DNA of 53,374 nucleotides, from IMG/VR virus record IMGVR_UViG_3300042890_003727, positions 1-53,374 of that record; one strand, 5' to 3'. Both the position numbers and the translations under genes were made by a program. Below, one piece after another: positions 19,019-53,374 of the stretch (its first letter is position 1; each line of letters opens with the position of its first letter). Origin of the DNA: a virus. The notes beneath the pieces were generated by a model. The model had not been told where the DNA came from and ran no database searches. It saw only the letters and a program-made list of their open reading frames with translations.

Positions 19019-19960
19019 TTATCGAGCAGTTACCAAGAGGTTGGCTCGTTTTTCTTTGCAATTTATTACATTCCTTGTTCGACTACGATGACCGCAATCA
19101 TTGCAAATGACTTCCATGAATTCAGACACTGGTGTAAACACTGAGTTACCTGTAGGATGAATCTCTGCACTACCGCATACAGGACAACGGTGAAGATCAT
19201 CCTCATGGTAATGACCTGCATTTGGTGGTCGAGTATCAAAGGCACGAAGCTTCATGTAAACTCTTTCAAGTAAAACTACATCTTGTTCATTGTAAGTAAC
19301 CATATTTTCCAAAGCTTGCTCATCACCTTGCATGCAACGAATCCACAAAGAGATTCCTGTTGTTTCAGCTTTACGACCTACGTTAAGATAGTTTCCTAAA
19401 GAGTCAAGTTTGTTGCTATTGAACCTTAGTCCTTTTGCAATCTGCAAAGTATCTAGTACCTTTACAGTTTTAGGTGGAGGCATTGAATGCGAGATTAACC
19501 TAGTTTTAAACAAAGGTACATCAAACCTTACTGCATTATGAGCTACTACAACATCTGCTTCTTCGAAAGCATCATACAGAGCGCATACGATCCTGCAGTC
19601 ATCACCACGGATTGCTTCTTCTGGAGTAAGTACAATCCTTGTAACTGATTTATCACCTAGATATTTCCAGCAAGCCGATAGTAAGAATCCACCTTCTCGT
19701 AGCACTGATTCTGTACCAATGTTTTGTTTCCATCGACCAAAGGTTGCAACAATACTTGGTGTGCTTTCAAGATCAAAGAATAGAATCCTTGCTCCTTCTT
19801 TCTTATCTTCAACAGTTACTTCTTCGTCATCAACTAGTCTGTTAATAATATCATTTACTGTTGACTTACCAATTCCCAAGAGACTGGCAATTGATCGACT
19901 AGATAAACCATCTGAGTTTAAGGTAATTACCTTTTCAATAACTTCTTGTGAGTGCTTCAT
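19019..19960 (-). CDS. DnaQ-like 3'-5' exonuclease with HTH and zinc ribbon
   Basis: A 313-residue three-part protein. Residues ~1-45 are a helix-turn-helix (SRSIASLLGIGKSTVNDIINRL). Residues ~55-235 are an RNase H-fold DEDD exonuclease with Asp63 and Glu65 (FFDLEST), AHNAVRFDVP and YNEQDVVLLERVY as the remaining acidic motifs. The C-terminus carries a CxxC...CxxC zinc ribbon (RCPVCGS and CNDCGHRS). This architecture is common in phage replication clusters and is probably used in recombination or nucleotide recycling. Its start overlaps the preceding stop (ATGA). Confidence 0.88.
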   Translation of the reverse strand: MKHSQEVIEKVITLNSDGLSSRSIASLLGIGKSTVNDIINRLVDDEEVTVEDKKEGARILFFDLESTPSIVATFGRWKQNIGTESVLREGGFLLSACWKYLGDKSVTRIVLTPEEAIRGDDCRIVCALYDAFEEADVVVAHNAVRFDVPLFKTRLISHSMPPPKTVKVLDTLQIAKGLRFNSNKLDSLGNYLNVGRKAETTGISLWIRCMQGDEQALENMVTYNEQDVVLLERVYMKLRAFDTRPPNAGHYHEDDLHRCPVCGSAEIHPTGNSVFTPVSEFMEVICNDCGHRSRTRNVINCKEKRANLLVTAR

Positions 19961-21822: not shown

Positions 21823-22041
21823 TCAACTACGACTTACTTCAATTGCTTTGATAATCTCGTCTGATTTTTCTTTTAACTCATCTACCTTACCTTTTACAAT
21901 AGCTTTTGCTACTGCACTAATAATGCTTGCATCAAGATCACTTTCTTTTGCTTCGTCTTTAACTTCTTTAATTTCTTCAGCTAAAGACTGCTCCTGAGTA
22001 TATAGTCGAACGAGTTTTGCAATTGCTTCTTTTTGATTCAT
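21823..22041 (-). CDS. Small helical protein with GapR-like pattern
   Basis: A 72-residue helical protein. The block LAEEIKEVKDEAKESDLDASIISAVAKAI resembles the core of GapR/DUF2312 DNA-binding proteins (helix with IKEV-x-x-EAK then a DxxII helix). If homologous it would bind overtwisted DNA ahead of forks, fitting its place between the nuclease and SSB genes; this is an inference. AAAAAGGATTAAA precedes the ATG. Confidence 0.7.
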   Translation of the reverse strand: MNQKEAIAKLVRLYTQEQSLAEEIKEVKDEAKESDLDASIISAVAKAIVKGKVDELKEKSDEIIKAIEVSRS

Positions 22042-22042
22042 T

Positions 22043-22252
22043 TTAATCCTTTTTATTAATAACTGATTTACTCAACCATGTGGCATTAAGCACAATAACT
22101 GCTAACCAATTCCAAAAATTATAAGGAATTGCAAGCACTGGAAAGAGAGAATTTAAAGCCCACAGAATTGCTAGTGGTCCAAAAATAAAGATTAAAACAC
22201 AAATTGTTATTAAAAACAAGATGCTGATAATATCTGTTGTACTTTTAGTCAT
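22043..22252 (-). CDS. Small two-helix membrane protein
   Basis: A 69-residue protein from the ATG at 22252 (MTKSTTDIIS); a TTG at 22279 would add nine residues. Two membrane segments (ISILFLITICVLIFIFGPLAI and a shorter one near NWLAVIVLNATW). No function recognised. It lies between SSB and the GapR-like gene. Confidence 0.7.
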   Translation of the reverse strand: MTKSTTDIISILFLITICVLIFIFGPLAILWALNSLFPVLAIPYNFWNWLAVIVLNATWLSKSVINKKD

Positions 22253-22275
22253 AATTGTGTTTGGTTTCCTTGATT

Positions 22276-22878
22276 TCAAAATGGCACATCCTCTTCTTCA
22301 TCTAACTGCACCTTTGCCTTTGCTTTAGGTTTAGCTTTCGCTTCAGTTTTAGCAGCAGGTGCCGCAGAACCAAATTCTTCACCGGGATTGTACTTGCTAC
22401 CACTACCTTCAGTTTTAACGTATTCAACTAAGTCAGTAATTAGAATGTTTTTAAGTCGAGCAACATTTCCTTTTGCCATTTCCCAAACATCAACACTCAT
22501 TGCACCTTTTGAACCATTACCAACTAGCACCGTAGAAGTAACATCCTTATGTTCACCATCTTCAGGTACAAGGATTTTTGGTTGATAGATATCAGGAACA
22601 TCTTCACCGTTACCCAGCTTTGTGTTTTTACGAAGAGTAATAACGTATTGTTTTTTAGCACTTGGGTTTGGTGCTGGTGTTTTATACTTTGCTTCAAATT
22701 CAGAAGTTTTTACTGCAGTCGCAGGTTGTTTAGGGTAGTCTTCATTCCAAGCATCTGCTGTATCTTCATCCACAGCAATAGACGCTTTCCATTCCTTACC
22801 TTTAGTTTTTTCAAAGCAGTCAACGGGGTTTTGAACTTGTACAAAAAGTAAAGTTCCTTCAAGTTTGCGAATAGGCAT
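22276..22878 (-). CDS. Single-stranded DNA-binding protein (T7 gp2.5-like)
   Basis: A 200-residue protein from the ATG at 22878 (TTGGAGGAAATT precedes it). An OB-fold-like N-terminal part is followed by a Lys/Ala-rich linker (KTEAKAKPKAKAK) and a strongly acidic tail ending LDEEEDVPF, the hallmark of phage SSBs that use the tail to contact polymerase and helicase. It has its own consensus promoter. Confidence 0.87.
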   Translation of the reverse strand: MPIRKLEGTLLFVQVQNPVDCFEKTKGKEWKASIAVDEDTADAWNEDYPKQPATAVKTSEFEAKYKTPAPNPSAKKQYVITLRKNTKLGNGEDVPDIYQPKILVPEDGEHKDVTSTVLVGNGSKGAMSVDVWEMAKGNVARLKNILITDLVEYVKTEGSGSKYNPGEEFGSAAPAAKTEAKAKPKAKAKVQLDEEEDVPF

Positions 22879-22939
22879 AATTTCCTCCAAAAGTGTTTCC
22901 AAAAGTTTACTACTTAACACAAGTAGCCAGTGTTTAATG

Positions 22940-22968
22940 ATTATACAACAGATTGACTTTCATGTCAA
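22940..22968 (-). promoter_or_regulatory. Consensus leftward promoter for SSB gene
   Basis: Minus strand TTGACA (22968-22963), 17-base spacer, TATAAT (22945-22940): a perfect sigma70 consensus. Confidence 0.9.
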
Positions 22969-22969
22969 T
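22952..22969. promoter_or_regulatory. Inverted repeat overlapping SSB promoter -35 (operator candidate)
   Basis: ATTGAC-NNNNNN-GTCAAT is a perfect 6-bp inverted repeat that covers the -35 box and the start of the spacer. A dimeric repressor bound there would block RNA polymerase. No repressor gene is identified. Confidence 0.45.
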
Positions 22970-22978
22970 AGTTATTTG

Positions 22979-23055
22979 TGGTGAAATCGACAGGACTTGA
23001 ACCTGTAACCAATGGATTATGAGTCCACTGCTCTAACCAATTGAGCTACAATTCC
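22979..23055 (-). tRNA. tRNA with CAT anticodon (Ile2 or elongator Met)
   Basis: A complete 77-nt cloverleaf: acceptor GGAATTG/CGATTTC, D-arm TAGCTCAATTGGTTAGAGCA, anticodon loop CTCATAA, T-arm ACAGGTTCAAGTCCTGT, discriminator A and an encoded CCA. The anticodon CAT can belong to Met or to the Ile2 type whose C34 becomes lysidine and reads ATA. The variable region TTGGTT and T-arm look closer to Ile2 as I remember it, and ATA is a frequent phage codon, so Ile2 is favoured. Confidence 0.93.
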
Positions 23056-23059
23056 TTAT

Positions 23060-23416
23060 TTATACTTCAACGTATTCAGTCCTTAATACTTCTTTTGGTT
23101 TTACAAAAAACCAATCGGTGTATTCAGAACCATTATATGATTGATACCAACCATTGAATTTAACATAAAGAAAATTAGATTCTTCAGCGCCTGTGAATTT
23201 ATAAACTGACCAGTATTGATCACCCATACCTTCACCACCAAAGCATTCTGTGTGTTCAAATGCAATATTATTTTCACGCAGTTTATTTTTAAATTCAATT
23301 ACTTCTTCACTATCCCATTTACTATCTTCATTTCCAATCTCTGAACCAAAAAATTGATTTAAGATATCAGAATCTGCGTTTGATAGAAGTTCTTTGATTT
23401 TATCTTTTAACATCAT
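23060..23416 (-). CDS. Conserved phage hypothetical protein, 118 residues
   Basis: An acidic protein with an N-terminal helix (LKDKIKELLSNADSDI) and a beta-rich aromatic C-terminal half (YWSVYKFTGAEESNFLYVKFNGWYQSYNGSEYTDWFFVKP). The same aromatic pattern ending appears in many phage proteins of unknown role. AAAGGAAATACAA precedes the ATG; the stop lies five bases before the tRNA 5' end. Confidence 0.8.
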   Translation of the reverse strand: MMLKDKIKELLSNADSDILNQFFGSEIGNEDSKWDSEEVIEFKNKLRENNIAFEHTECFGGEGMGDQYWSVYKFTGAEESNFLYVKFNGWYQSYNGSEYTDWFFVKPKEVLRTEYVEV

Positions 23417-23427
23417 TTGTATTTCCT

Positions 23428-23943
23428 TTAAATTGAATAGTTTTTAAATGTCTGGCAAGTAACTTGCAGCATTCTAACAAAATGCCAATGAGAAAATTCC
23501 GTATTATTATAAGACGAATAATTGCAATTAATACGAATATAACCACCGGATTGATAATTGCTCAAATCTTTTACAGCAAGAACTACATAAGTAGGATAAT
23601 CACTAAGATCACATATTGCAACAATATTATCATTATAAGTGCTGTTATGAAAATCATTATCAAAAGAAGCAGAGTTGTACTCTACTTTAAAATCATAACT
23701 TTCTAAGTATTCATTCATATCATAAATAAAATCCGTATCTACTTTATGCCCTGTTACATGTTTGGCAAATGTTTCGTGATTTTCTTTGACGTACTTGTCA
23801 AAAACAAGCTTAAATCTTTGTTCCCAAACAAGTTTTTTCTGCAGTTCTTTAATTTTTTCTTCTGATTCTTTTCTAATCTTTTCAATCTCTTGTTCAACTG
23901 TCATTTGCAATTGAATTGCTGGAGCTTTAGCTTTAGTTACCAT
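23428..23943 (-). CDS. Hypothetical protein with N-terminal coiled coil, 171 residues
   Basis: Residues ~12-45 form a charged coiled coil (VEQEIEKIRKESEEKIKELQKKL); the C-terminal half is rich in Tyr, Asn and Ser and ends in a beta-type segment (GGYIRINCNYSSYN...HWHFVRML) that resembles the C-terminal half of the 118-residue neighbour. The two may be related by duplication. Function unknown. Confidence 0.75.
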   Translation of the reverse strand: MVTKAKAPAIQLQMTVEQEIEKIRKESEEKIKELQKKLVWEQRFKLVFDKYVKENHETFAKHVTGHKVDTDFIYDMNEYLESYDFKVEYNSASFDNDFHNSTYNDNIVAICDLSDYPTYVVLAVKDLSNYQSGGYIRINCNYSSYNNTEFSHWHFVRMLQVTCQTFKNYSI

Positions 23944-24742
23944 TGTTTAGTTCCTTTCTTATGTTTTCAAACTTTGTCTTGCAAAATAATTCATTTACTT
24001 CTGGATAATAATCAATTGCATGATCTCTAAACCAACCGCTGCAAAGAGTAGTGCAGATTTTATCAATTGCCTTAAGATATGAATGCCTTACTGAATACTC
24101 CCAATTCCTTGGAACTAAGAATCTTTCAATTGCAATAACACTTGCTTCTTCAGCAACGCATTTAGTTTTATCTTCCAATGATAACTTATCCCAAAGATCG
24201 CGTTCGCACCATGCTTTACTCGGATCACTCTGAAGGCGAGTATACAATGGTTTGTCATAGTAAGCAACAATCTCATGCAAATAATCATGATCGTATTTTT
24301 TAACAACATAATCATCAAAGAAATCCTGCACGGATTTATTTAGCTTTGGATAACCTTGTGGAAATTCTTTCATGGTTAACTCAATGCGCTTTTGTAAAAA
24401 GGCTTCGATTTCATCATTATAATTTTGTCTCTTATAAGGAATCATTTGCCTGTGATAATGCGTAATGTGCTTTTGAAAGCTAATGTTTCTCCACAAGTGA
24501 CTTCGCTTAACTGCAGATAAGCCCCAAGGGTTTACAACATGCAGTTCAATACCTTTGAAATCAATTACGCAATCATCTCTTGTAAATCTTTCAAGATCAG
24601 CATTGTTCAATAAACAGGGTCTATGCCACTCAGCACCTTCAATTGGTTCTGTGCTAATAATATCCCAATCTGTATTGCTTGAAATTTTCATTTTAGAATT
24701 CCAGAAATTAAGTGCCCTAGAACCAATTAGCATTGCTTTCAT
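23933..24742 (-). CDS. Putative nucleotidyltransferase-fold protein
   Basis: A 269-residue protein starting MKAMLIGSRALNFW, selected because CAGGAGTAATA precedes this ATG; the longer open frame to 24844 runs through the tRNA-Arg gene and is not coding. GSRA followed by DWDII (residues ~7-35) is the pol-beta nucleotidyltransferase motif GS...DxD. Related phage proteins exist but their substrates are unknown. Because it lies between two tRNA genes, action on tRNA or another RNA is an attractive guess only. Confidence 0.72.
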   Translation of the reverse strand: MKAMLIGSRALNFWNSKMKISSNTDWDIISTEPIEGAEWHRPCLLNNADLERFTRDDCVIDFKGIELHVVNPWGLSAVKRSHLWRNISFQKHITHYHRQMIPYKRQNYNDEIEAFLQKRIELTMKEFPQGYPKLNKSVQDFFDDYVVKKYDHDYLHEIVAYYDKPLYTRLQSDPSKAWCERDLWDKLSLEDKTKCVAEEASVIAIERFLVPRNWEYSVRHSYLKAIDKICTTLCSGWFRDHAIDYYPEVNELFCKTKFENIRKELNNGN

Positions 24743-24761
24743 TATTACTCCTGATTTAAAC

Positions 24762-24838
24762 TGGTGCGCCCTGAGAGATTCGAACTCCCGACATGCGGTG
24801 TAGAAGACCGCTGCTCTATCCAACTGAGCTAAGGGCGC
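24762..24838 (-). tRNA. tRNA-Arg (anticodon TCT)
   Basis: A complete 77-nt cloverleaf: acceptor GCGCCCT/AGGGCGC, D-arm TAGCTCAGTTGGATAGAGCA, anticodon stem GCGGT/ACCGC with loop CTTCTAC, T-arm CGGGAGTTCGAATCTCTC, discriminator A and encoded CCA. It reads AGA (and AGG), codons used often in this genome and usually rare in GC-richer bacterial hosts. Confidence 0.95.
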
Positions 24839-24846
24839 ATGCATGA

Positions 24847-24876
24847 ATTATACATCGGATTCTTCGTTCTGATCAA
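24847..24876 (-). promoter_or_regulatory. Promoter for tRNA-Arg
   Basis: Minus strand TTGATC (24876-24871), 18-base spacer, TATAAT (24852-24847). The -10 box ends eight bases before the mature tRNA 5' end, so transcription would start almost at the tRNA. Confidence 0.75.
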
Positions 24877-25015
24877 CTTTTCTCAAAATATTTTCTTTTA
24901 TGTCCAGCCAAGCCAACAAGTTCAGATCACTCTTTGGCATGCTCATGCTGGATCTTAGCACACCTTCATCCCATTGTTGTAAAGTTTTGTATTCATCGCA
25001 GTATTTGTAATGCAT
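24848..25015 (-). CDS. Small protein after DNA polymerase, 55 residues
   Basis: The ATG at 25015 follows GAAAGGTGCT and lies 14 bases after the polymerase stop. The acidic product (MHYKYCDEYKTLQQWDEGVL...) has no recognised domain. Its 3' end contains the tRNA-Arg promoter. Confidence 0.68.
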   Translation of the reverse strand: MHYKYCDEYKTLQQWDEGVLRSSMSMPKSDLNLLAWLDIKENILRKVDQNEESDV

Positions 25016-25029
25016 AGCACCTTTCGTTG

Positions 25030-27207
25030 TCAGCGGATCACAAGCTTCTCGGCTTCTTGCACGTAGTACTCAAAGTCAAGGTCTGAATCAAAGTCCTTCA
25101 TGTTGTTGCATGTTTTGACTTTCCATGATGTATCAATACCAAGCCTTCTATCTGAGTCGTCTTCATTTGTTTCCAATGCTGGCATGAGCTTTATCAGCTT
25201 GCCACCAGATGCTGAAGGGTAATACCTGCAGATGTTTTGCTGCTGGATTACTCTACCATCTTCGAATTCTAGCACAAGTTTTGAACTACGTGGAACTTTT
25301 GTTCTTAGCATGAAGTCAAAGATGTTTCCTGCATTGAAGTGCTGCTCAATAAACTGCCTTGTGCTTATGCCAGTGGTCATGCTAGCTTCTGCTGCCATAG
25401 GAATGACAAGTGCTGATTGATTTTGATGCCAACCTAAACCCTCGTACTGATAAGCTCCTTTGCGTTTAGTCTTTCCATTTGTATAAACAGCAATGTAATT
25501 ATTTACATCACGAATAATCATCTTGGAATAATCAACGAATTCAAGTTCTAGCTTTACATCTTTTTGCCACTGATCACAAATATCTTTGTACTGCTGTTCG
25601 CTTTCTCTGAGCATTGCAACTGTCAATCCATCTGTATTTAATTGCACAAGCCTAAGTGACTCAATACTTAGCAAGCGATCTGCAAGCATCAACAAAGACA
25701 ACTGACCATTGATAGTGATCGACATTGTGAACTTAGGATCATAGAACACAGAGAACTTATCATTGCTCTTGCCATAAGTGCCATTGAGTGCAAGTTTAAG
25801 CATTGCATTTTCTGCAGTATTCTTAGCGTAGGACTTTCGCTGCACGTACATATCTTGATAAATATCACAGAACTTTTCACCAAGATGCTCAGGATAAATC
25901 CTGTTTGAAATAGCAATATTTGGATACATAGAACTTACGTCAGCATCCCTGAGCATGTAGCTCTTTGTTTCCTTAACGATCTTTTCACTCAAGGATGCAT
26001 GCACACCACCTACTCCAAAATCAATCCTATAGCCATCTACAAGCACGTTTAGAGTCTCGGCATACCTGTAGCAACCCCAATAGGATTTCTTCGGTATACG
26101 GGCTTTCTTTTGCTTCTTTGTGAAGTCAGGTGATCCGTCTTCATCAAGAGGGTATTCCATTACATGATTACCTTGTGCATCAAACAAGTACTCAGTAGCT
26201 TTTAGCTCTTGTTCTTCAACCCATCCTAGAGGATACTGCTTGAGAAATAACTTAAGCTCTGCGTCATCTGGTTTGCTTTTAAACTTCTTTCGTTTAATAT
26301 CAAGCTGAGCGTACTTAGCTACATTACCAAGTCTGTGCTCTTCAATCTCGGAGAAAACACCTTTTGTTTCAGTAATTACTTGCTCACCAAACCATTCATA
26401 GATTGCTTGAAACTCAGGTCTTGTAAAGCTGTAGTAATTAAACAAGCAGTCTTTAATCGCAATGCTATCTCGCTTGGTTTGCTTAATAACTTTTTTACCA
26501 TCTTTGTGAGTATGTAAAGCAACACCTGCTTTTTCTAGCTCAATTTGAAAATACTCAGCACCAATCTTAGTATCATCAGCGTTAGTAAAGTCCTTGTCTA
26601 GTTTCTTGCTTAGATCATCCCTGAAAGAAATCTGATTTTCTGATTCGTTATAAAAAGCAAGAGTGCAAGCAACATCATGCTCGTTGTAGGATTTAATCCT
26701 ATCAAGCTTTTCATCATCAAGTTGTTCTTCAATATCATAAGGAAGATCTTCAATATTGTCCAGGCGCATATTAAACTCAAGCATCTTCAAACCAGTGGCT
26801 TTTGCTTTGTTATTAAAATGCCAGATGCGATAAAGGTCAACTTGCTTTATGTACTCATCTGCAGTTTTTACTGTATAGCCAAAACCATCGTTTTTAAAAC
26901 TATCAATCTGCCTTTGTGCCCATTGAAATACTTTAGCAGCCAGAGCTTTACCTGTCTTTGGTAAAACATCTCGGTTTTCAATAAGCTTGTGAATGATGGG
27001 ATAGTCAAACCCACAGGAGTTAAAACCCACAAGGCGATGATCATTTTCATGAAGATAGTCAAGGCATGCCAAGATGCGATCTACTTCATTGATGCGGCTG
27101 GAAACCTCAAAAGTCTTCTTGAACTTAGCATCTGCACGGATGATGCTGAAGGTAAACGCATGCTTGTATGTCTCAATGTCCCAAATCCAGTCTTTTGTTC
27201 GATCCAT
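25030..27207 (-). CDS. Family B-type DNA polymerase with 3'-5' exonuclease
   Basis: A 725-residue replicative polymerase starting MDRTKDWIWDIET (TTGGAGGAAAGC precedes the ATG). The N-terminus is a proofreading exonuclease: WDIET (DxE), VGFNSCGFDYP and YNEHDV. The polymerase part carries motif A DADVSSMYPN, motif B KLALNGTYGKS and motif C LNTDG, the family B pattern (DxxSLYP, KxxxNxxYG, DTD), with Asn-Thr-Asp-Gly in place of the common Asp-Thr-Asp-Ser. It is compact and shows no obvious terminal-protein insertions. It works with the T7-type primase-helicase encoded upstream, a mixed pairing. Confidence 0.9.
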   Translation of the reverse strand: MDRTKDWIWDIETYKHAFTFSIIRADAKFKKTFEVSSRINEVDRILACLDYLHENDHRLVGFNSCGFDYPIIHKLIENRDVLPKTGKALAAKVFQWAQRQIDSFKNDGFGYTVKTADEYIKQVDLYRIWHFNNKAKATGLKMLEFNMRLDNIEDLPYDIEEQLDDEKLDRIKSYNEHDVACTLAFYNESENQISFRDDLSKKLDKDFTNADDTKIGAEYFQIELEKAGVALHTHKDGKKVIKQTKRDSIAIKDCLFNYYSFTRPEFQAIYEWFGEQVITETKGVFSEIEEHRLGNVAKYAQLDIKRKKFKSKPDDAELKLFLKQYPLGWVEEQELKATEYLFDAQGNHVMEYPLDEDGSPDFTKKQKKARIPKKSYWGCYRYAETLNVLVDGYRIDFGVGGVHASLSEKIVKETKSYMLRDADVSSMYPNIAISNRIYPEHLGEKFCDIYQDMYVQRKSYAKNTAENAMLKLALNGTYGKSNDKFSVFYDPKFTMSITINGQLSLLMLADRLLSIESLRLVQLNTDGLTVAMLRESEQQYKDICDQWQKDVKLELEFVDYSKMIIRDVNNYIAVYTNGKTKRKGAYQYEGLGWHQNQSALVIPMAAEASMTTGISTRQFIEQHFNAGNIFDFMLRTKVPRSSKLVLEFEDGRVIQQQNICRYYPSASGGKLIKLMPALETNEDDSDRRLGIDTSWKVKTCNNMKDFDSDLDFEYYVQEAEKLVIR

Positions 27208-27221
27208 GCTTTCCTCCAAAT

Positions 27222-27253
27222 AAACAAGCCCCAAGTCTATCACAACTTGGGGC
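27222..27253 (-). terminator. Leftward terminator after primase-helicase gene
   Basis: Minus strand GCCCCAAGT and ACTTGGGGC form a 9-bp stem with loop TGTGATAG, followed by TTGTTT. The stem sequence also contains the promoter elements listed at 27234-27262. Confidence 0.85.
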
Positions 27254-27262
27254 CAAAGTCAA
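27234..27262 (-). promoter_or_regulatory. Leftward promoter for DNA polymerase overlapping a terminator
   Basis: Minus strand TTGACT (27262-27257), 17-base spacer, TAGACT (27239-27234). The spacer and -10 are built from the terminator stem, so termination of upstream transcripts and initiation for the polymerase gene share the same bases. Confidence 0.65.
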
Positions 27263-27272
27263 CGATCTGTGA

Positions 27273-28991
27273 TCAATGACTGTTCAACCAGTCATCTAAG
27301 TTGTGCAAGGTATGCGTGGAGTTATCGTAGTAAATAAAACCAGCAGGACCAGTTAGACCACATACTCGATTTTTTGTTACGCTAATTTCTGTGCTGTTTC
27401 TAACGACCTGATCATCTGCCATTTTATCTCGTTTGAGTAAAATATTTGCTGAAGCTGATTTAATAATAGTGCTAGAACCCATGATGTTCTGTTCACTATC
27501 TGCACCATTTTGACCAGCAGGTGTTTTACGCATATGATTAATAAAGATGAAAGTAATGCCGTGGCTTTTAATAAAACCCTTAGCCCACTTCATAAACTCA
27601 GCTTGTTCTTCATTGGATAAACCATCTAGAATATCCTGAAGAGGATCAAGCACGATTACTTTTGCACCACAAGCAGATACCAGTTCTTCAACAGTATCTT
27701 GAATCTCTTCAATGCTACCATCACGATTATCTAGCAGATAAAATCTTGAATCACCATCTTCTTTAATGGTAAGTTCTTTTGCTTTTTCAATAACCTTATC
27801 TGTGCTTAGATAAGCAATCTTTTCATCTTGGCTTTCAATCAAAGCAAGTTTCTTTTCAAGATGTCTTGATAGAAGTACTTCACCGTATTGACCTGCATCT
27901 AGTTCCATAGAAACAATACCTACAGTATGAGGTGAATTAAAAATCCAGTAGTAAATCAACTCATTGACAAGTGTAGTTTTACCAACACCTGTATCTGCTG
28001 CGATATTAACAATATGACCAAGAGGCATTCCACCTACAAATAACTCATTTAGTTTTTGCATAAAAGGTGGAAATGGAATTTTAGCAACCACAGACTGACC
28101 CATGATTCTATCATACAGATTACTTGATGCAAGAACTCCAACTGGTACTTGTTTTTTAGCTGAATAAAAATCACTAATGAATGCGTCATCTTCGGCTTTC
28201 TCAAGATATTCGTTAGCATCTTTATACCGCATTGGCATAATTTTAACTTTACCTTTTGGTAGAACTTTTAAAATCTGTTCAGTAGCAGTTTGTCCAGCCT
28301 TATCATTATCGTAAGAGATAATAATATTATCAAACGAATCAAAGAATCTAAACTGAGCAGCAATTTGCTTGTGAGAATTTGCACCTGTAGTTGGACTAAC
28401 AACTGCTGTTTCAAAACCCCAACCTTTTTTCTCATTGTACTCAGAAAGCATTTGATAAGCTGACAATGCGTCAAGTTCACCTTCAGTAATTATGATGTAC
28501 TTACCACCTCGGTTGAATTTAAACTGCATGAATAATTCGCAGTCAGCACCAGTTCTACCTTTGGAGTAAAAGTTCTTAGGTACTTCACGAATCTTGTAAC
28601 CAACAAGCTGACCATCCTGTGTGCAAGGATAGTACTGCTCAATAACTTCATCTGACTCTTCTGAGTAAGAATGCCTGACACCAAACTTAGTGTAGATACT
28701 ATCATCAATAGAACGAAAGCCATTTGCCTTTACTGAAGTGCGGGATTTAATATCCTGATTCTCTTCTGGTGAAATAGCAGGTTTGGTGCTTGGTTTAACT
28801 TCCATGTTTTCTGATTCCTTTTTAATACCTGATCTTACTTTTGATGACTTCTTTGAGTTTTGTTCAATGAACTCATTCGATGGTACTGTATGTTCGCAAA
28901 CAAAACAGTGAGAAGAATCATCAGCATAAATTGCTTTACCATCTGAACTACCGCATTTATCACAACTTGTATGCCTGATAAAATTCGCCAT
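27273..28991 (-). CDS. Bifunctional DNA primase-helicase (T7 gp4-like)
   Basis: A 572-residue replisome motor. The N-terminal zinc-binding domain has Cys10, Cys13, Cys29 and Cys32. A TOPRIM primase core follows, with IITEGELDAL and ISYDNDKAG as metal-binding motifs (residues ~165-235). The C-terminal RecA-fold helicase shows Walker A DTGVGKTT near residue 325 and Walker B VIVLDPLQD near residue 450, plus a later FINHMRK motif typical of the T7 family. AAGGAGTTAA precedes the ATG. Confidence 0.93.
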   Translation of the reverse strand: MANFIRHTSCDKCGSSDGKAIYADDSSHCFVCEHTVPSNEFIEQNSKKSSKVRSGIKKESENMEVKPSTKPAISPEENQDIKSRTSVKANGFRSIDDSIYTKFGVRHSYSEESDEVIEQYYPCTQDGQLVGYKIREVPKNFYSKGRTGADCELFMQFKFNRGGKYIIITEGELDALSAYQMLSEYNEKKGWGFETAVVSPTTGANSHKQIAAQFRFFDSFDNIIISYDNDKAGQTATEQILKVLPKGKVKIMPMRYKDANEYLEKAEDDAFISDFYSAKKQVPVGVLASSNLYDRIMGQSVVAKIPFPPFMQKLNELFVGGMPLGHIVNIAADTGVGKTTLVNELIYYWIFNSPHTVGIVSMELDAGQYGEVLLSRHLEKKLALIESQDEKIAYLSTDKVIEKAKELTIKEDGDSRFYLLDNRDGSIEEIQDTVEELVSACGAKVIVLDPLQDILDGLSNEEQAEFMKWAKGFIKSHGITFIFINHMRKTPAGQNGADSEQNIMGSSTIIKSASANILLKRDKMADDQVVRNSTEISVTKNRVCGLTGPAGFIYYDNSTHTLHNLDDWLNSH

Positions 28992-29006
28992 TTAACTCCT
29001 TATAGT

Positions 29007-30032
29007 TTATTCGTTCTTAAGCAACCAAGAGTTTGAAATTGCTTTAAAGCTTCGATAATCAACGCTGTTGCTCTTAAATACAAGACCTTCTCGCTGGCAA
29101 GTATTCAATTGCGATTTACCTTCAGCTTGCTCAAGGATTCCAGCAATGCTTTCACCAACTAGCGAAATGCTTTCAGCTAGGATAGGTACGTGGTTTAATC
29201 CAAGACGCTCACAGGCAGCTTTAAGCTGAATTGGCAGCAAGTATCGCCCTGTGGAGGTATTGTACATATCGTAAACATAAAAGTCAAGCTGACGTTTGTA
29301 TGAATTGCCTTGGATACCTTCACCAATCATCTCACCTTGGATTGCCATGCCTAGCATAGTATTTCGGCGCATGACACCTTCAACATCGTATTTCCTAGCT
29401 ACTTTCCAAAAGCTGTTTACTTCGTCTTCCTTCAAGTCCAAATTACGTGAGCATACGTGAAATACTCCTTCTGCATCTAGATAGAAAGTGCAAGATGAAC
29501 CATCTAGCTTTTCAGTAATTGACCAGTCATCATCTTGATATTCATTATTGAATTGTTTTACAATATTTTGAATTCGCTCCTGATCTGTCTTTGGTACTAG
29601 CGCAGGAAAATTACCTCGGGCCATACCAGCGAGTTGAGCATTCATTGGCTTTTCCCACTTGATGATACAAAGCTCTTGTGTTACATCTTCACCTTCTTTT
29701 ACCATTGATTCAATATTGGAGTTATCTGCCAATGCAGTTAATCCCAGCAACAAACCTTGTGATAATTGACCACGTAGTTTTACAGTACGCAGGCGCTCAC
29801 CCTTTACACCTTCAAATACACGAGGTTCTTTATCTTTAGATAGAAAAGGTGCAAGCTCTGTAGGAACCCATGAATCAATTTCTAGGTAAATAGCAAGAGA
29901 ACCTGCACTGAACTCGCCTTTCTTTACTACAACTTTCCAGCCATCAACTACAGCTACTTCAATTGCATCAGCGCCCTCAATAGCTTCAATAGCTGAGATT
30001 TTACGGATTGTTGCAAGTTTACGTTCTGTCAT
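29007..30032 (-). CDS. RNA ligase, Rnl5 (DraRnl)-like
   Basis: A 341-residue ATP-dependent ligase starting MTERKLATIRKISAIEAIEGADAI, chosen because AAAAGGAAAACAA precedes this ATG; the longer open frame to 30152 overlaps a separate small gene. An N-terminal OB-like domain (~residues 1-125) precedes the nucleotidyltransferase core, the order of Deinococcus radiodurans RNA ligase. Lys175 in EKLDGSS is the adenylated lysine, with EMIGEG, EGLVFKS and SFKAIS as later motifs. These enzymes seal nicks with a 3'-OH RNA end in duplexes. Confidence 0.87.
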   Translation of the reverse strand: MTERKLATIRKISAIEAIEGADAIEVAVVDGWKVVVKKGEFSAGSLAIYLEIDSWVPTELAPFLSKDKEPRVFEGVKGERLRTVKLRGQLSQGLLLGLTALADNSNIESMVKEGEDVTQELCIIKWEKPMNAQLAGMARGNFPALVPKTDQERIQNIVKQFNNEYQDDDWSITEKLDGSSCTFYLDAEGVFHVCSRNLDLKEDEVNSFWKVARKYDVEGVMRRNTMLGMAIQGEMIGEGIQGNSYKRQLDFYVYDMYNTSTGRYLLPIQLKAACERLGLNHVPILAESISLVGESIAGILEQAEGKSQLNTCQREGLVFKSNSVDYRSFKAISNSWLLKNE

Positions 30033-30201
30033 TTGTTTTCCTTTTAAAATATAATTTTGTAAAATAAGAAGTTGAAGCCATTGATAGGTTTGAATAAATA
30101 GTACCGAAAGACAAAAACATAATAAGTCCATCAAATACTTCACATAAACCAATTAGCATTAGTTCGTACTTCCTGAGTCTACTACCTGATTTTCTAAGCA
30201 T
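30019..30201 (-). CDS. Small membrane protein, 60 residues
   Basis: ATG preceded by TAGGAGTAATT. The product has a basic N-terminus and one membrane segment (LMLIGLCEVFDGLIMFLSFG). It overlaps the RNA ligase start by 14 bases, consistent with coupling. Function unknown. Confidence 0.7.
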   Translation of the reverse strand: MLRKSGSRLRKYELMLIGLCEVFDGLIMFLSFGTIYSNLSMASTSYFTKLYFKRKTNDRT

Positions 30202-30228
30202 AATTACTCCTATGTTTCCGTCAAAATA

Positions 30229-31134
30229 TCACAAATCATCTTTGTGCCGAATACCAACCAGCACAGGAAATCTCGGGACACTGTAGCCATTACCTACATC
30301 AAAGTACTTTACCTTTGCTAGCTTGCCTTTGAGTTCGTTGCGCTCAAGCCATAGTTTAGCACGAAGATCATCGGTAAAACCACTTCCGCAAGTAAAAATC
30401 AGACCTTTTTCTGTCTCCAAGATCAAAGCCCCCATTGTATCCAGGGGTATCATTCCAGCTTTAGCAGTGCTGCGTTCAGTTCGACCTAGCTCATTTGTCT
30501 TTGCTTCATTTGAATTATGATACTTTGGCTCATACCCAATGATAAGAAATTCTTTATCTACAAAGCGTTTAACCTTTTGTAGTTCTGGTGTTTTAGTTCC
30601 AGACCTTCCGCATTTGTATTTACCGCATGCATCTCGTAGCATAATACCTTCAGCACCTTGAGCAAGCATCTTAGCTTCAAACTCTTCAATATCTACTAAG
30701 TTATTAACAGGATAATGCTCAAGTAGTTTTACTCTATCTGGTAAAGCACCAAAATCATTAAGTTGCTCAAGTCCTGCAAATCTAAATCTCCAATAAGAAA
30801 AATTAGCATATTCATCAAAGATCCAGAATGCGAAGTCAGGAGTACCATCTTGTCGCATTACACCGCTTGTGCTTTGATTAAACACATCAGGAGCGTTTTT
30901 ATCACCTACGATAAGCTCACCATCAACACCTTCAAGAACCTCGGCATGCTGCTTGAAATAAGCCTGAATAGAAGCATTAGGGATTGGCTTTAGACTGCGA
31001 GAGTAACCTACACCACCAAATACAATGCATCGAATACCATCAAGCTTTTCAGACATGTAAAGATTTTCTGGTTGTACTTTTACTTTACTTTGCTCAATTG
31101 CAAGCAAAGGTTTAAAACCATCAGGAATAGCCAT
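30229..31134 (-). CDS. ATP-dependent DNA ligase
   Basis: A 301-residue ligase starting MAIPDGFKPLLAIEQ (TTGGAGGCATCATCTT precedes the ATG). Lys30 in SEKLDGIR is the adenylation site; GVDGELIVG is motif III, AEGIMLRD motif IV and LQKVKRF motif V, followed by a C-terminal OB-fold (LAKVKYFDVGNGYSVPRFPVLVGIR). It lacks an N-terminal DNA-binding domain, as in T7-sized ligases. It seals Okazaki fragments and repair nicks. Confidence 0.92.
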   Translation of the reverse strand: MAIPDGFKPLLAIEQSKVKVQPENLYMSEKLDGIRCIVFGGVGYSRSLKPIPNASIQAYFKQHAEVLEGVDGELIVGDKNAPDVFNQSTSGVMRQDGTPDFAFWIFDEYANFSYWRFRFAGLEQLNDFGALPDRVKLLEHYPVNNLVDIEEFEAKMLAQGAEGIMLRDACGKYKCGRSGTKTPELQKVKRFVDKEFLIIGYEPKYHNSNEAKTNELGRTERSTAKAGMIPLDTMGALILETEKGLIFTCGSGFTDDLRAKLWLERNELKGKLAKVKYFDVGNGYSVPRFPVLVGIRHKDDL

Positions 31135-49789: not shown

Positions 49790-49790
49790 T

Positions 49791-49910
49791 GACTAGACCG
49801 TTCAGTCACAATCTGAACTGTTCAGTCAGAGACTAGACCGTTCAGTATAATTATGACCCTTCAGTCACAATTTGAACTCATCAGTCACAAAATAGACCGT
49901 TCAGTCAGAA
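49791..49910. repeat. Six iterons of about 20 bp
   Basis: Consensus GACTAGACCGTTCAGTCACA. The TTCAGT (or ATCAGT) core starts at 49801, 49821, 49841, 49860, 49880 and 49900, i.e. one face of the helix at two-turn spacing. Copies 1, 3 and 6 share AGACCGTTCAGT exactly. Confidence 0.85.
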
Positions 49911-49916
49911 AATAAG

Positions 49917-50045
49917 TTATGCACAGAATATTCACAGATTATGCACATATCCACAGGCAAGCAATTATCATGCCTGACTTATTCACAGGTTCTCAGTCTT
50001 ATATAAGACTAAAATTGTGCATAACCTTCACTGCAGTGTGAATAA
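49917..50045. promoter_or_regulatory. Cluster of DnaA-box-like sites
   Basis: TTATGCACA at 49917 and 49939, ATATTCACA at 49928, ATATCCACA at 49947, TTATTCACA at 49979, and on the other strand TTATGCACA (50016-50024) and TTATTCACA (50037-50045). All fit TTATNCACA within one base. Confidence 0.75.
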
Positions 50046-50281
50046 CATTTTTATAGGGGATAGGCTTAGAACGCGAGAAAATGCCCCAAAATCGGTTTAA
50101 ATCACTGGCATGATAATTGTCTGGCATGAATTTTGCTCTTCGCGTGCGTGCGCATGCATTATTTATAATGAGTATAAATTGAAAACAAAGGTTTACATAG
50201 GGTTTGTCCCTATGCAAATAATTCAATTGTGGTAACGAAACAACACATTTACCGATAGAATAGACACCATGCACTGATCGA

Positions 50282-50324
50282 GGTGCTACCCCATAGGGTA
50301 AACCCTATAGCACCAAAGTGGTGC
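50282..50324 (+). promoter_or_regulatory. Mutually exclusive hairpins
   Basis: GGTGCT (50282-50287) and ATAGGGT pair with ACCCTATAGCACC up to 50314; alternatively GCACC (50310-50314) pairs with GGTGC (50320-50324). The two folds share bases and cannot coexist, as in attenuators or riboswitches, but no T-run follows. Confidence 0.5.
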
Positions 50325-50362
50325 GCGTTCGTTAAAAATTAATATAAGCTAAAATATCATAT

Positions 50363-50408
50363 TATAACCATATATTAATTATGTGGTTATAGTAGGGTGA
50401 TTTTACCC
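50363..50408 (+). promoter_or_regulatory. Two-hairpin RNA leader, copy 1
   Basis: Stem 1 TATAACCA/TGGTTATA (50363-50370, 50384-50391; three further inner pairs), then three bases, then hairpin 2 GGGT-GATTTT-ACCC (50395-50408). The next gene starts 22 bases later. Confidence 0.75.
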
Positions 50409-50430
50409 GGTTTTGATAATGAGATTCAAA

Positions 50431-50571
50431 ATGAAAATATGGTTCTACGCTCAAATTGACGAAAAGAATGCTAGGTTTTCAACTGCAATTAAAGCAATTA
50501 ATAAAATGCATGCATTAATTGAATTTAAGAATAAATATCCTCATGCAATTGAAATTCAAATTCAGGAATAA
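50431..50571 (+). CDS. Small protein, 46 residues
   Basis: MKIWFYAQIDEKNARFSTAIKAINKMHALIEFKNKYPHAIE...; an in-frame ATG at 50419 would add four residues, but 50431 keeps the ~20-base distance to the RNA hairpin seen at the other copies. Beta strand then helix. Function unknown. Confidence 0.65.
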   Translation: MKIWFYAQIDEKNARFSTAIKAINKMHALIEFKNKYPHAIEIQIQE

Positions 50572-50575
50572 TCAA

Positions 50576-50740
50576 ATGACAAATGAAGAAATTAAACAAG
50601 CAATTGCACATTATCAGTTGGAGTATATAACTACAATCGCAATTGATAGTATGGATTATGATAAACTAAGTTTGATTATTGCACTTGCCACCGGAAGAGT
50701 GGCAACATCACAAAACATTTTAGAACTTGTATGTTTATAA
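50576..50740 (+). CDS. Small helical protein, 54 residues
   Basis: MTNEEIKQAIAHYQLEYITTIAIDSMDYDKLSLIIALATGR... from ATG 50576 after CAGGAATAATCAA; the longer frame to 50519 lies in the upstream gene. Function unknown. Confidence 0.7.
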   Translation: MTNEEIKQAIAHYQLEYITTIAIDSMDYDKLSLIIALATGRVATSQNILELVCL

Positions 50741-50757
50741 TTTGATTGAGTTTTATA

Positions 50758-50820
50758 ATGCTTAAACTAAATATCATTATGTGGTTTGTCATTATGCCGA
50801 TACTGGCATACTATAATTAA
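50758..50820 (+). CDS. Possible 20-residue membrane peptide
   Basis: MLKLNIIMWFVIMPILAYYN, hydrophobic throughout, following TGAGTTTTATA. Too short to be certain; its end overlaps an inverted repeat (TATGCC-GATACT-GGCATA) and a TATAAT that may form the next promoter. Confidence 0.3.
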   Translation: MLKLNIIMWFVIMPILAYYN

Positions 50821-50830
50821 ATCAACAGAT

Positions 50831-50877
50831 TATAACCCTTGAATAATATCAGGGGTTATAGTCGGGTGATTTTACCC
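50831..50877 (+). promoter_or_regulatory. Two-hairpin RNA leader, copy 2
   Basis: Stem 1 TATAACCC/GGGTTATA (50831-50838, 50853-50860), three bases, hairpin 2 GGGT-GATTTT-ACCC (50864-50877). Gene start 22 bases later. Confidence 0.8.
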
Positions 50878-50899
50878 GGAATTGATATAGGTTAATATC

Positions 50900-51130
50900 A
50901 TGGCAAAATTCGAGAAAATCAAAGGTGTTTATTCTTTCGATGATATCTCAGAGAACAGTAAACCCGGACAATGGTTTATTGATAATGGTAGCATAAGAGC
51001 ACAGTATTTAGGTAGGACAAAATCAGGAACTATTGTAATGAATTATAAAAAGTATATTGGCAAAATTGACTTTCCGCATATGCTTGCAAATCATCATTTA
51101 CGGCAGTTTGCCATTAAATATTCTAAGTAA
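50900..51130 (+). CDS. Small basic protein, 76 residues
   Basis: MAKFEKIKGVYSFDDISENSKPGQWFIDNGSIRAQYLGRTKSGTIVMNYKKY..., a beta-rich basic protein with no recognised family. Single-gene unit between leader copies 2 and 3. Confidence 0.75.
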   Translation: MAKFEKIKGVYSFDDISENSKPGQWFIDNGSIRAQYLGRTKSGTIVMNYKKYIGKIDFPHMLANHHLRQFAIKYSK

Positions 51131-51144
51131 TAATTAAAATCTTC

Positions 51145-51193
51145 GCATAATATCTTAGATTAACTCTAGGGTATTATGCGGCTGATTTTAGCC
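51145..51193 (+). promoter_or_regulatory. Two-hairpin RNA leader, copy 3
   Basis: Stem 1 GCATAATATCTTAGA / TCTAGGGTATTATGC (15 pairs with two G-U, loop TTAAC, 51145-51179), directly followed by GGCT-GATTTT-AGCC (51180-51193). Hairpin 2 differs from copies 1-2 by a compensated pair change. Confidence 0.85.
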
Positions 51194-51213
51194 GAATCAT
51201 TGAAAGTATAAAA

Positions 51214-51426
51214 ATGCGCCTTATTTCCACAATTAATAAAGCCGTTGGATTTTCTGCCAAAGTATACTATAACTCTGAGTTGTCAGAGTATACTGTAAAA
51301 TACTATCAGGGAAAAGATACTATGCATGAGGGTACATGGTATTATTCAAATGATAAACAAGATGCTATTAATACGGCGCACCATGAGCTTAATTACATGG
51401 CAAATAATAATGCTTTGGCAGATTAA
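51214..51426 (+). CDS. Small protein, 70 residues
   Basis: MRLISTINKAVGFSAKVYYNSELSEYTVKYYQGKDTMHEGTWYYS..., beta N-terminal part and a helix (DAINTAHHELNYMA). Resembles small plasmid/phage proteins in layout; function unknown. Confidence 0.75.
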   Translation: MRLISTINKAVGFSAKVYYNSELSEYTVKYYQGKDTMHEGTWYYSNDKQDAINTAHHELNYMANNNALAD

Positions 51427-51441
51427 CTAAGGAATAATATC

Positions 51442-51675
51442 ATGATAATCGCAATATATAATCACGAATATGGAAATGATGTACGGGTATTTTCAAGTAT
51501 TGAAAGTGCATTAAACTGGAGAAATGAAATAGCTAATGATTATTGGAATGAGCATTATTACAATGATATTAAACCCGATAATGATATTGGGGCTTATTAT
51601 TTTGCAAATATGACAGATAATTCAGGGTTTTGTGAATCATTTGAGATAATCGAAAATGTTATCATTGAGGATTAA
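51442..51675 (+). CDS. Small acidic protein, 77 residues
   Basis: MIIAIYNHEYGNDVRVFSSIESALNWRNEIANDYWNEHYYND..., beta-helix-type with many aromatic residues. CTAAGGAATAATATC precedes the ATG. Function unknown. Confidence 0.75.
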   Translation: MIIAIYNHEYGNDVRVFSSIESALNWRNEIANDYWNEHYYNDIKPDNDIGAYYFANMTDNSGFCESFEIIENVIIED

Positions 51676-51677
51676 TT

Positions 51678-51881
51678 ATGTATAATCAAGTAAGTAAACT
51701 GTATTTTTATGATTATATCGGAAAAAAGGATGTAATAATTGAAGTACAAAAAGAGCGCAATTGTTATATTAGCTATTTTAAAATGAGGGGATTAGATAAA
51801 GTAATAGGTTATATTCAAAATCAAAATCAAATGATTAAAGAAGATAATCATTATTTTCTTATATTACCTATGAGTAGGTAA
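51678..51881 (+). CDS. Small protein, 67 residues
   Basis: MYNQVSKLYFYDYIGKKDVIIEVQKERNCYISYF..., preceded by GAGGATTAATT two bases after the previous stop. The 3' end forms an inverted repeat TTACCT-ATGAGT-AGGTAA. Function unknown. Confidence 0.72.
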   Translation: MYNQVSKLYFYDYIGKKDVIIEVQKERNCYISYFKMRGLDKVIGYIQNQNQMIKEDNHYFLILPMSR

Positions 51882-51902
51882 TCACTCAAACTAGTAAATT
51901 CC

Positions 51903-51952
51903 GATAATATCTTAGAATAACTCTAGGGTATTATCTGGATGATATTAATTCC
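51903..51952 (+). promoter_or_regulatory. Two-hairpin RNA leader, copy 4
   Basis: Stem 1 GATAATATCTTAGA / TCTAGGGTATTATC (51903-51935, loop ATAAC) followed by a looser hairpin 2 (GGAT-GATATTA-ATTCC, with a bulge). The stem 1 core is identical to copy 3 while its outer pairs differ and still match. Confidence 0.75.
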
Positions 51953-52880: not shown

Positions 52881-52900
52881 CGCTAACAAACCACCAGCAA

Positions 52901-52935
52901 AGCCCCTAGAATCAAATCTAGGGGCTTTTCTTTTT
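52901..52935 (+). terminator. Strong terminator after GP88 operon
   Basis: AGCCCCTAGA-ATCAAA-TCTAGGGGCT, a perfect 10-bp stem, followed by TTTCTTTTT. Confidence 0.93.
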
Positions 52936-53374
52936 GGGTTGATGCAATGCCATGCATCCGGGAAATTCAAGCCCATAAGCGATTCTAGGGGCTTGTATCC
53001 GATAGGGTTTGAGGGTTCAATGCATGGGCTTTCATGCGATAGGCATGCATCGGGTTAATGCATGGGCTTGGATCCATGAGCTAATCGAAGGCTTAACTGA
53101 CGCGCCACTGACGTAACGCAGGCATTATCCCGACTAATAATATATGACAATATATAATATGACAAAATAAAATCGCCTCACTACGTTCGGGTTAATACCT
53201 TCAAGCAATAATCAATATAATATAAACCCGAAATATTAAAACCTAATACCATTACTAGGCTAGCGCATGGTTAACGTGATATTTTAAAATCCTGCAGTAT
53301 AACTACAGGGTAACACGCTGGGCTATCAAGCACCCTTGACTTACAGCAAAGCTATAACCCTACCGGCATATGAC
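52936..53374. other. Non-coding repeat-rich right end
   Basis: No gene of credible length is seen. The first part repeats ATGCATGGGCTT (around 53020 and 53060), GATTCTAGGGGCTTG and GATAGGGTTTGAGGG, partly copied from the preceding terminator. A 53140-53240 segment is very AT-rich with ATATGACA repeats. Near 53276-53340 a stretch (CGTG...TAACTACAGGGTAACACG) resembles a degenerate copy of the two-hairpin leader. Confidence 0.6.

Follow-up and report, generated by a model that had tools for sequence, protein, structure and literature searches.

A covarying two-hairpin RNA element between small genes of freshwater phages related to Limnohabitans phage DC31

Why does a phage genome carry the same pair of RNA hairpins four times in quick succession, each time ahead of a different gene and with stems of different sequence? 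We investigated this question in an IMG/VR virus record of 53,374 bases (positions 1 to 53,374; henceforth the window) by comparing the four copies with one another, with homologous copies in related phages and with known RNA elements located between or ahead of phage genes. The window elements, genes and cluster-head and terminator signals described below are on the plus strand.

A family of adjacent hairpins with changing sequence

Each copy comprises a long hairpin (hairpin 1) followed by a small one (hairpin 2), a two-hairpin structure which we refer to as fold A. As the original prediction stated, four copies are present, with their two hairpins together occupying positions 50360–50408, 50828–50877, 51145–51193 and 51903–51952. 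Specifically, hairpin 1 is a stem of 15 bp in copy 1 (50360–50394) and copy 2 (50828–50863), of 15–16 bp in copy 3 (51145–51179) and of 14 bp in copy 4 (51903–51935). Hairpin 2 reads GGGT GATTTT ACCC in copies 1 and 2 (50395–50408 and 50864–50877) and GGCT GATTTT AGCC in copy 3 (51180–51193), and is degenerate in copy 4 (GGATGATATTAATTCC, 51937–51952), where the loop region is GATATT; the loop GATTTT, described as typical of most copies, is therefore found in three out of four. The two hairpins are indeed adjacent, and the gap between them, given earlier as 0–3 bases, is 0–1 nt when counted from the outermost pairs. The stem changes quoted between copies are compensatory as described, and the element does lie about 20 bases ahead of each start, with 20–26 nt between hairpin 2 and the start codon in the window. 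All four copies are much more stably folded than their dinucleotide shuffles, with z-scores of -4.2, -5.9, -5.3 and -5.4 for copies 1 to 4, respectively.

The closest named relative of the window is Limnohabitans phage DC31 (PQ492658.1), a phage isolated on Limnohabitans sp. DCL3, which carries three copies in a syntenic cluster (minus strand of the DC31 record, with the first G of hairpin 2 near positions 19346, 19001 and 18466). A covariance model (R1) built from these seven copies (four from the window and three from DC31; 97.7% of cells paired in the seed alignment, covariation score 0.624 versus 0.261) detected the element in independent phages, the lowest E-values being around 1e-13. It identified more copies in IMG/VR phages to which neighbouring genes or DNA patterns had led, along with diverged ones in contigs L040, L053, L050 and L019, bringing the total to 47 distinct elements in about 20 phage contigs (i.e., the window, DC31 and their IMG/VR relatives). 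None of 4227 Rfam families gave a match above the gathering threshold, and the paper describing DC31 mentions no hairpin, promoter or terminator. The two-hairpin element is a real, undescribed and well-supported RNA family in freshwater phages related to Limnohabitans phage DC31.

We assessed fold A in an alignment of 42 distinct copies (A6), in which 89.5% of cells pair (part of the unpaired hairpin 1 cells being alignment slips in four copies), 15 of 19 pairs change on both sides and 171 cells carry double changes. The covariation score was 0.581, compared with 0.218 ± 0.015 in shuffled alignments and at most 0.214 when pairing partners were slid. Across the family, hairpin 1 is a perfect helix of 10–16 bp (14–16 bp in the window), and hairpin 2 is a 14-nt structure with the pattern GGNU RAYWUY RN'CC. 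The first two pairs of hairpin 2 are almost invariant and hence uninformative on pairing; the third, N-N', is AU in 16 copies, GC in 13, CG in 10 and UA in 4, with no mismatch in 43 copies, and the U of GGNU faces G in 22 copies and A in 21. In two copies (L165:2393 and L190:3115), hairpin 2 contains an inserted segment and is lengthened to about 7 bp, which adds support for hairpin 2 pairing. The original prediction had made its case for selection on RNA structure depend on the existence of homologues with compensatory changes; such homologues exist, and we regard the existence of fold A as practically certain. A third strand, in which GATAATC behind hairpin 2 would pair with the 3' arm of hairpin 1, was rejected because it does not track the changes in that arm.

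The element is always found on the coding strand, in the same orientation as neighbouring genes; its start lies 5–24 nt behind a stop codon, and the gap from the end of hairpin 2 to the next start is usually about 17–28 nt. Most of the well-covered contigs have 2–5 copies, which form one cluster per genome with none elsewhere in those genomes. Given that orientation and place are kept and that there is only one cluster, we rejected a REP-like repeat or mobile palindrome. The spread of the element is modular: the genes downstream belong to at least nine unrelated families, with the automatic choice of start uncertain in several cases. The gp88 gene query and most of a second gp88-like family led to phages without the element, meaning that the element does not travel with the gp88 protein. 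In Ghunavirus phages, a relative of another gene of the cluster (gene B, see below) is found at the first-gene position and the element is absent.

Several pattern searches mainly returned chance matches. Scanning viral contigs for GGGTGATTTTACCC yielded more than 100 stretches, nearly all of them chance and real only in L019, L040, L050 and L053; new matches to TACACTA...GGTGATTTTACC were chance hits within coding sequence; and exact hairpin 2 patterns reached new contigs at E-values of 0.06 or worse, which we took as chance. An element-like stretch at L188:1084 was too diverged and was left out of the count. Separately, the metagenomic phage contig L053 contains a Group I intron (602–906) and an int-alpA RNA (2367–2432).

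A probable alternative fold formed with the 5' flank

The original prediction described the two hairpins correctly and overlooked two features, namely a boxA-like site at the head of the cluster and a second, alternative fold. Directly upstream of hairpin 1 lie 10–12 nt that are complementary to hairpin 2. In the window, the flanks of copy 1 (GCTAAAATATCA, 50348–50359; UAAAAU/AUUUUA) and copy 2 (ATTAAATCAACA, 50816–50827) are complementary to their own hairpin 2 loops, the latter flank beginning at the stop codon that ends a hydrophobic peptide of 20 aa. In copy 3 (ATTAAAATCTTC, 51133–51144) AAAATC is fully complementary to GATTTT, and in copy 4 (AGTAAATTCC region, 51891–51902) the complementarity is weak. 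The AAAATC-GATTTT pair is also found in L040, and flank and loop form AGTATT-AATACT in L160 and AAAATT-AATTTT in L156; in L053 and L050, the flank GTAGAGTTAC pairs with GTGATTTTAC of hairpin 2. Although their sequence differs, the diverged relatives L053, L050, L019, L040 and L185 have retained both the layout in three parts and the pairing of the flank.

The resulting structure, fold B, is one imperfect hairpin of about 56–60 nt with 18–28 bp in 44 copies (mostly 21–28 bp), interrupted by a bulge or a small internal loop where hairpin 1 adjoins hairpin 2. All six loop bases and the closing bases of hairpin 2 are used in fold B, so folds A and B are mutually exclusive. We also considered an H-type pseudoknot between the flank and an intact hairpin 2, and rejected it since all six loop bases are paired and none is left to cross the helix.

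We quantified flank pairing with tests that are not tree-aware and that related AT-rich sequences tend to inflate: the mean duplex energy of each flank with its own loop was -2.43 kcal/mol, compared with -1.34 ± 0.19 kcal/mol when loops and flanks were permuted (0 of 5000 permutations), and the longest flank pairing run, taking the better of two registers, was 6.7 versus 5.7 (0 of 5000). The same permutation test applied to stretches farther upstream and downstream gave p-values of 0.63, 0.38 and 0.94. Grouping the flank-loop pairing by loop type gave p = 0.03, and shuffling only the flanks in 22 diverse cluster representatives gave a combined Fisher p of 4e-6. Covariation at a fixed register showed a modest excess (0.177 versus 0.149 in shuffles), which is small because two registers are in use. 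In local folding, fold B was more stable than fold A by 2.4 kcal/mol on average, and in longer context the ensemble was nearly balanced (about 0.38 fold A and 0.56 fold B). Copies 1 and 2 of the window favour fold A, and the minimum free energy structure of copy 3 is the long-hairpin fold. Taken as a whole, fold B is very probably real and has statistical support, albeit weaker than that of fold A, and the element can apparently change between two hairpins and one long hairpin.

The gene cluster and its transcript

At the head of the cluster we found a -10-like TAGAAT (50256–50261; a consensus match only, and the counterpart of TATAAT in relatives) and, about 20 nt upstream of copy 1, a boxA-like site (GTTCGTTAAAAATTAA, 50327–50342) which is conserved at the cluster head in relatives. 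The -10-like box and the boxA-like site (GTTC(T/G)TTAA(A/C)AATT or close) precede the first gene in the window and in seven relatives, and the boxA probably serves NusB/S10 antitermination of an early phage operon. In the window (50256–50342), in L001 (8990–9085) and in L158, L160–L164 and L165, a small hairpin accompanies the -10-like box and the boxA at the head, the boxA (GTTCTTTAAAAATTGAGAG or a variant of it) being of the rrn type; the first genes of Ghunavirus KNP (L145:732) are likewise preceded by a boxA (CTCTTTAACAA). In L001 (9081–9112), L158 and L161–L164, the first gene is preceded by a plain hairpin of 11–12 bp, at the place that a full two-hairpin element occupies in the window and L165. 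Just upstream of the cluster (window 49790–50035; L001 8390–8740) there are iteron-like repeats (GTTCAGTCA) and DnaA-box-like repeats (TTATCCACA/TTATGCACA), a region that is likely a replication origin.

Copy 1 is followed by a small gene (MKIWFYAQ..., 50431–50571) and by a second one without an element of its own (50576–50740). An unannotated but conserved peptide of about 20–30 aa that contains a hydrophobic stretch (MLKLNIIMWFVIMPILAYYN / MDSTDKLMIKINVIIWFMVCPLISYLV) is encoded at 50757–50820 in the window and at 9490–9573 in L001. Gene A (50900–51130; 76 aa, with a PGQWF motif), which follows copy 2, has a relative behind the same element in L040 and another in L053. Gene B (51214–51426; 70 aa, phrog_7884) has relatives in DC31, in IMG/VR phages and among the first genes of Ghunavirus, and L053 combines relatives of genes A and B within one cluster. 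The location of gene B in the first gene block of these T7-like Pseudomonas phages suggests a role in host take-over. Two small genes without an element (51442–51675 and 51678–51881) precede copy 4, behind which lies a gp88-family gene (PF17338; 51979–52743). The cluster ends with a strong intrinsic terminator-like hairpin (52899–52928); the terminator-like stretch around it (AAAGCCCCTAGAATC...TCTAGGGGCTTT, 52881–52931) has a third complementary copy of its arm 67 nt downstream (52981–52994).

The copies had been described as heading four short operons. We found no terminator or promoter signature dividing them, which makes one polycistronic transcript more likely. Specifically, no convincing intrinsic terminator was found between the window copies. 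A terminator scan flagged three hairpins (hairpin 1 in copies 2 and 3, hairpin 2 in copy 1), solely on account of the AUUUU loop or of nearby Ts. An intrinsic terminator or attenuator would combine a G+C-rich hairpin with a U run behind it, a form that the hairpins lack, and in the aligned copies there is no U run after either of them. The flanks resemble a -10 box (mean 4.8 of 6 matches, versus 4.3 in shuffled flanks), but there is no enrichment of a -35 signal at the sigma-70 spacing of 16–18 nt (1.4–1.6 matches, equal to other spacings), and separate sigma-70 promoters at the copies are unlikely. Without a -35 signature and without a terminator between copies, the arrangement fits read-through. 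We thus infer that the cluster is one boxA-led transcript with internal elements, probably an early phage transcript.

Possible functions and known systems

What the element does probably involves cutting or otherwise managing this shared mRNA. Our working model, which we put forward tentatively, is that it acts in cis within one polycistronic transcript, at the boundaries between its genes, and that host RNase III cuts fold B near the junction of hairpins 1 and 2, in a way resembling the processing of T7 early mRNA. A cut at the junction would yield pieces of about 45–47 and 11–14 nt. The downstream gene would then carry hairpin 2 as a protective 5'-terminal hairpin, and the upstream gene would retain a structured 3' end. 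Release of hairpin 2 at a new 5' end would also explain why it is conserved as a hairpin even though fold B consumes it. No RNase III gene was found in the window, so a host enzyme must be assumed. What counts against processing is that a pure RNase III site would not require such strict conservation of hairpin 2, unless the proposed role after cleavage is right; the modest covariation excess of the flank pairing and the preference of window copies 1 and 2 for fold A also weigh against it.

Several other explanations have to be considered. In one, the element regulates translation: hairpin 2, with its loop of roughly RAUWUY, could serve an RNA-binding protein as its operator, or a switch formed by the flank and hairpin 2 could respond to the ribosome that completes the upstream gene and so couple the translation of neighbouring genes. 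The constant distance to the start (usually 17–28 nt), the stop codon at or inside the flank, the conserved loop and GG/CC pairs of hairpin 2 and the near balance of the two folds all speak for regulation of this kind; yet, as judged by reading the sequences of the copies, neither fold consistently covers the ribosome binding site, no gene for an RNA-binding regulator was recognised nearby and the distance from stop codon to flank varies from 5 to 24 nt, which leaves this explanation doubtful though worth serious consideration. A protein-free version, in which a ribosome finishing the upstream gene would mask the flank and convert the long hairpin into two, such that how well its neighbour is translated would decide the processing, stability or translation of each small phage gene, strikes us as quite improbable. 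It is also unlikely, if slightly less so, that the element is a passive stabiliser or insulator whose hairpins protect 3' and 5' ends or stop ribosomes from reading through between genes: this would suit stable stems of freely exchanged sequence at intergenic cistron boundaries, but would leave both the conserved flank complementarity and the strict GGNU/RN'CC and loop pattern unexplained.

The remaining two explanations concern transcription. RNA-only antitermination of the HK022 put type, to which the element had originally been likened, could account for a pair of adjacent hairpins in a phage transcript and for the location of copy 1 about 100 nt behind a promoter-like site; however, a boxA already stands at the cluster head, several copies lie within 1.5 kb with no terminators between them, and neither the anatomy nor a model search agrees with putRNA (see below), making this very unlikely. 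We give hardly any credence to a DNA element, i.e., a promoter or operator palindrome ahead of each operon. Hairpin 1 is palindromic and the flank is -10-like as noted, but the -35 signal is missing and the arms exchange sequence with compensation, of which protein-binding palindromes have no need.

The element represents a phage RNA family that is new and covaries very strongly, and its presence in the isolated phage DC31 as well as in metagenomes makes it directly testable. If the processing model is true, phages unrelated to T7 have evolved intercistronic cut-and-cap elements of their own; if instead the switch model is true, the element would be a modular, translation-coupled RNA device reused before many unrelated genes.

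Known systems share some of its properties. In 5'-terminal mRNA-stabilising hairpins of the ompA type, a stable hairpin lies shortly before the ribosome binding site. The element likewise has a stable hairpin close ahead of this site, but is intercistronic and has a complementary flank. With rrn-type boxA antitermination leaders the cluster shares the boxA-like site at its head, in the window and in relatives, whereas the two-hairpin elements themselves have no boxA. The putL and putR RNAs of HK022, which bind the zinc-binding domain of RNA polymerase and suppress terminators, are similar in having two neighbouring stem-loops in a phage transcript. By cryo-EM, however, putRNA measures about 73 nt and both of its stem-loops are long and irregular: stem I contains a bulge and a triplex, stem II has non-canonical pairs, and one put copy acts over at least 10 kb (PMC9378689). 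By contrast, the element has a perfect first stem, a 14-nt hairpin 2 (in 42 aligned copies) and an alternative long-hairpin fold, and its 2–5 copies lie within about 1.5 kb and are not separated by intrinsic terminators. The R1 model found no match in HK022 positions 22000–31000 up to E-values of 5 and 10, and classing the element as a put RNA is not supported.

Finally, the RNase III sites of T7 (R0.3, R0.5, R1, R1.1 and R1.3) resemble the element in lying between co-transcribed small phage genes, behind a stop codon and about 20 nt before a start, although the single transcript is in our case a presumed one. They form a near-continuous helix of about 20 bp or more, often with an internal loop, a form which the element adopts in fold B, one of its two folds. 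R1.1, for example, is a 60-nt hairpin with an asymmetric internal loop between early genes, and is cut into 47 and 13 nt (PMC6121014); overall, the T7 intergenic sites fold to sizes and at positions similar to those of fold B. The element has no sequence or model similarity to these sites and differs from them in its conserved second, alternative hairpin and its perfect upper stems of 13–16 bp, and its cleavage is a proposal.
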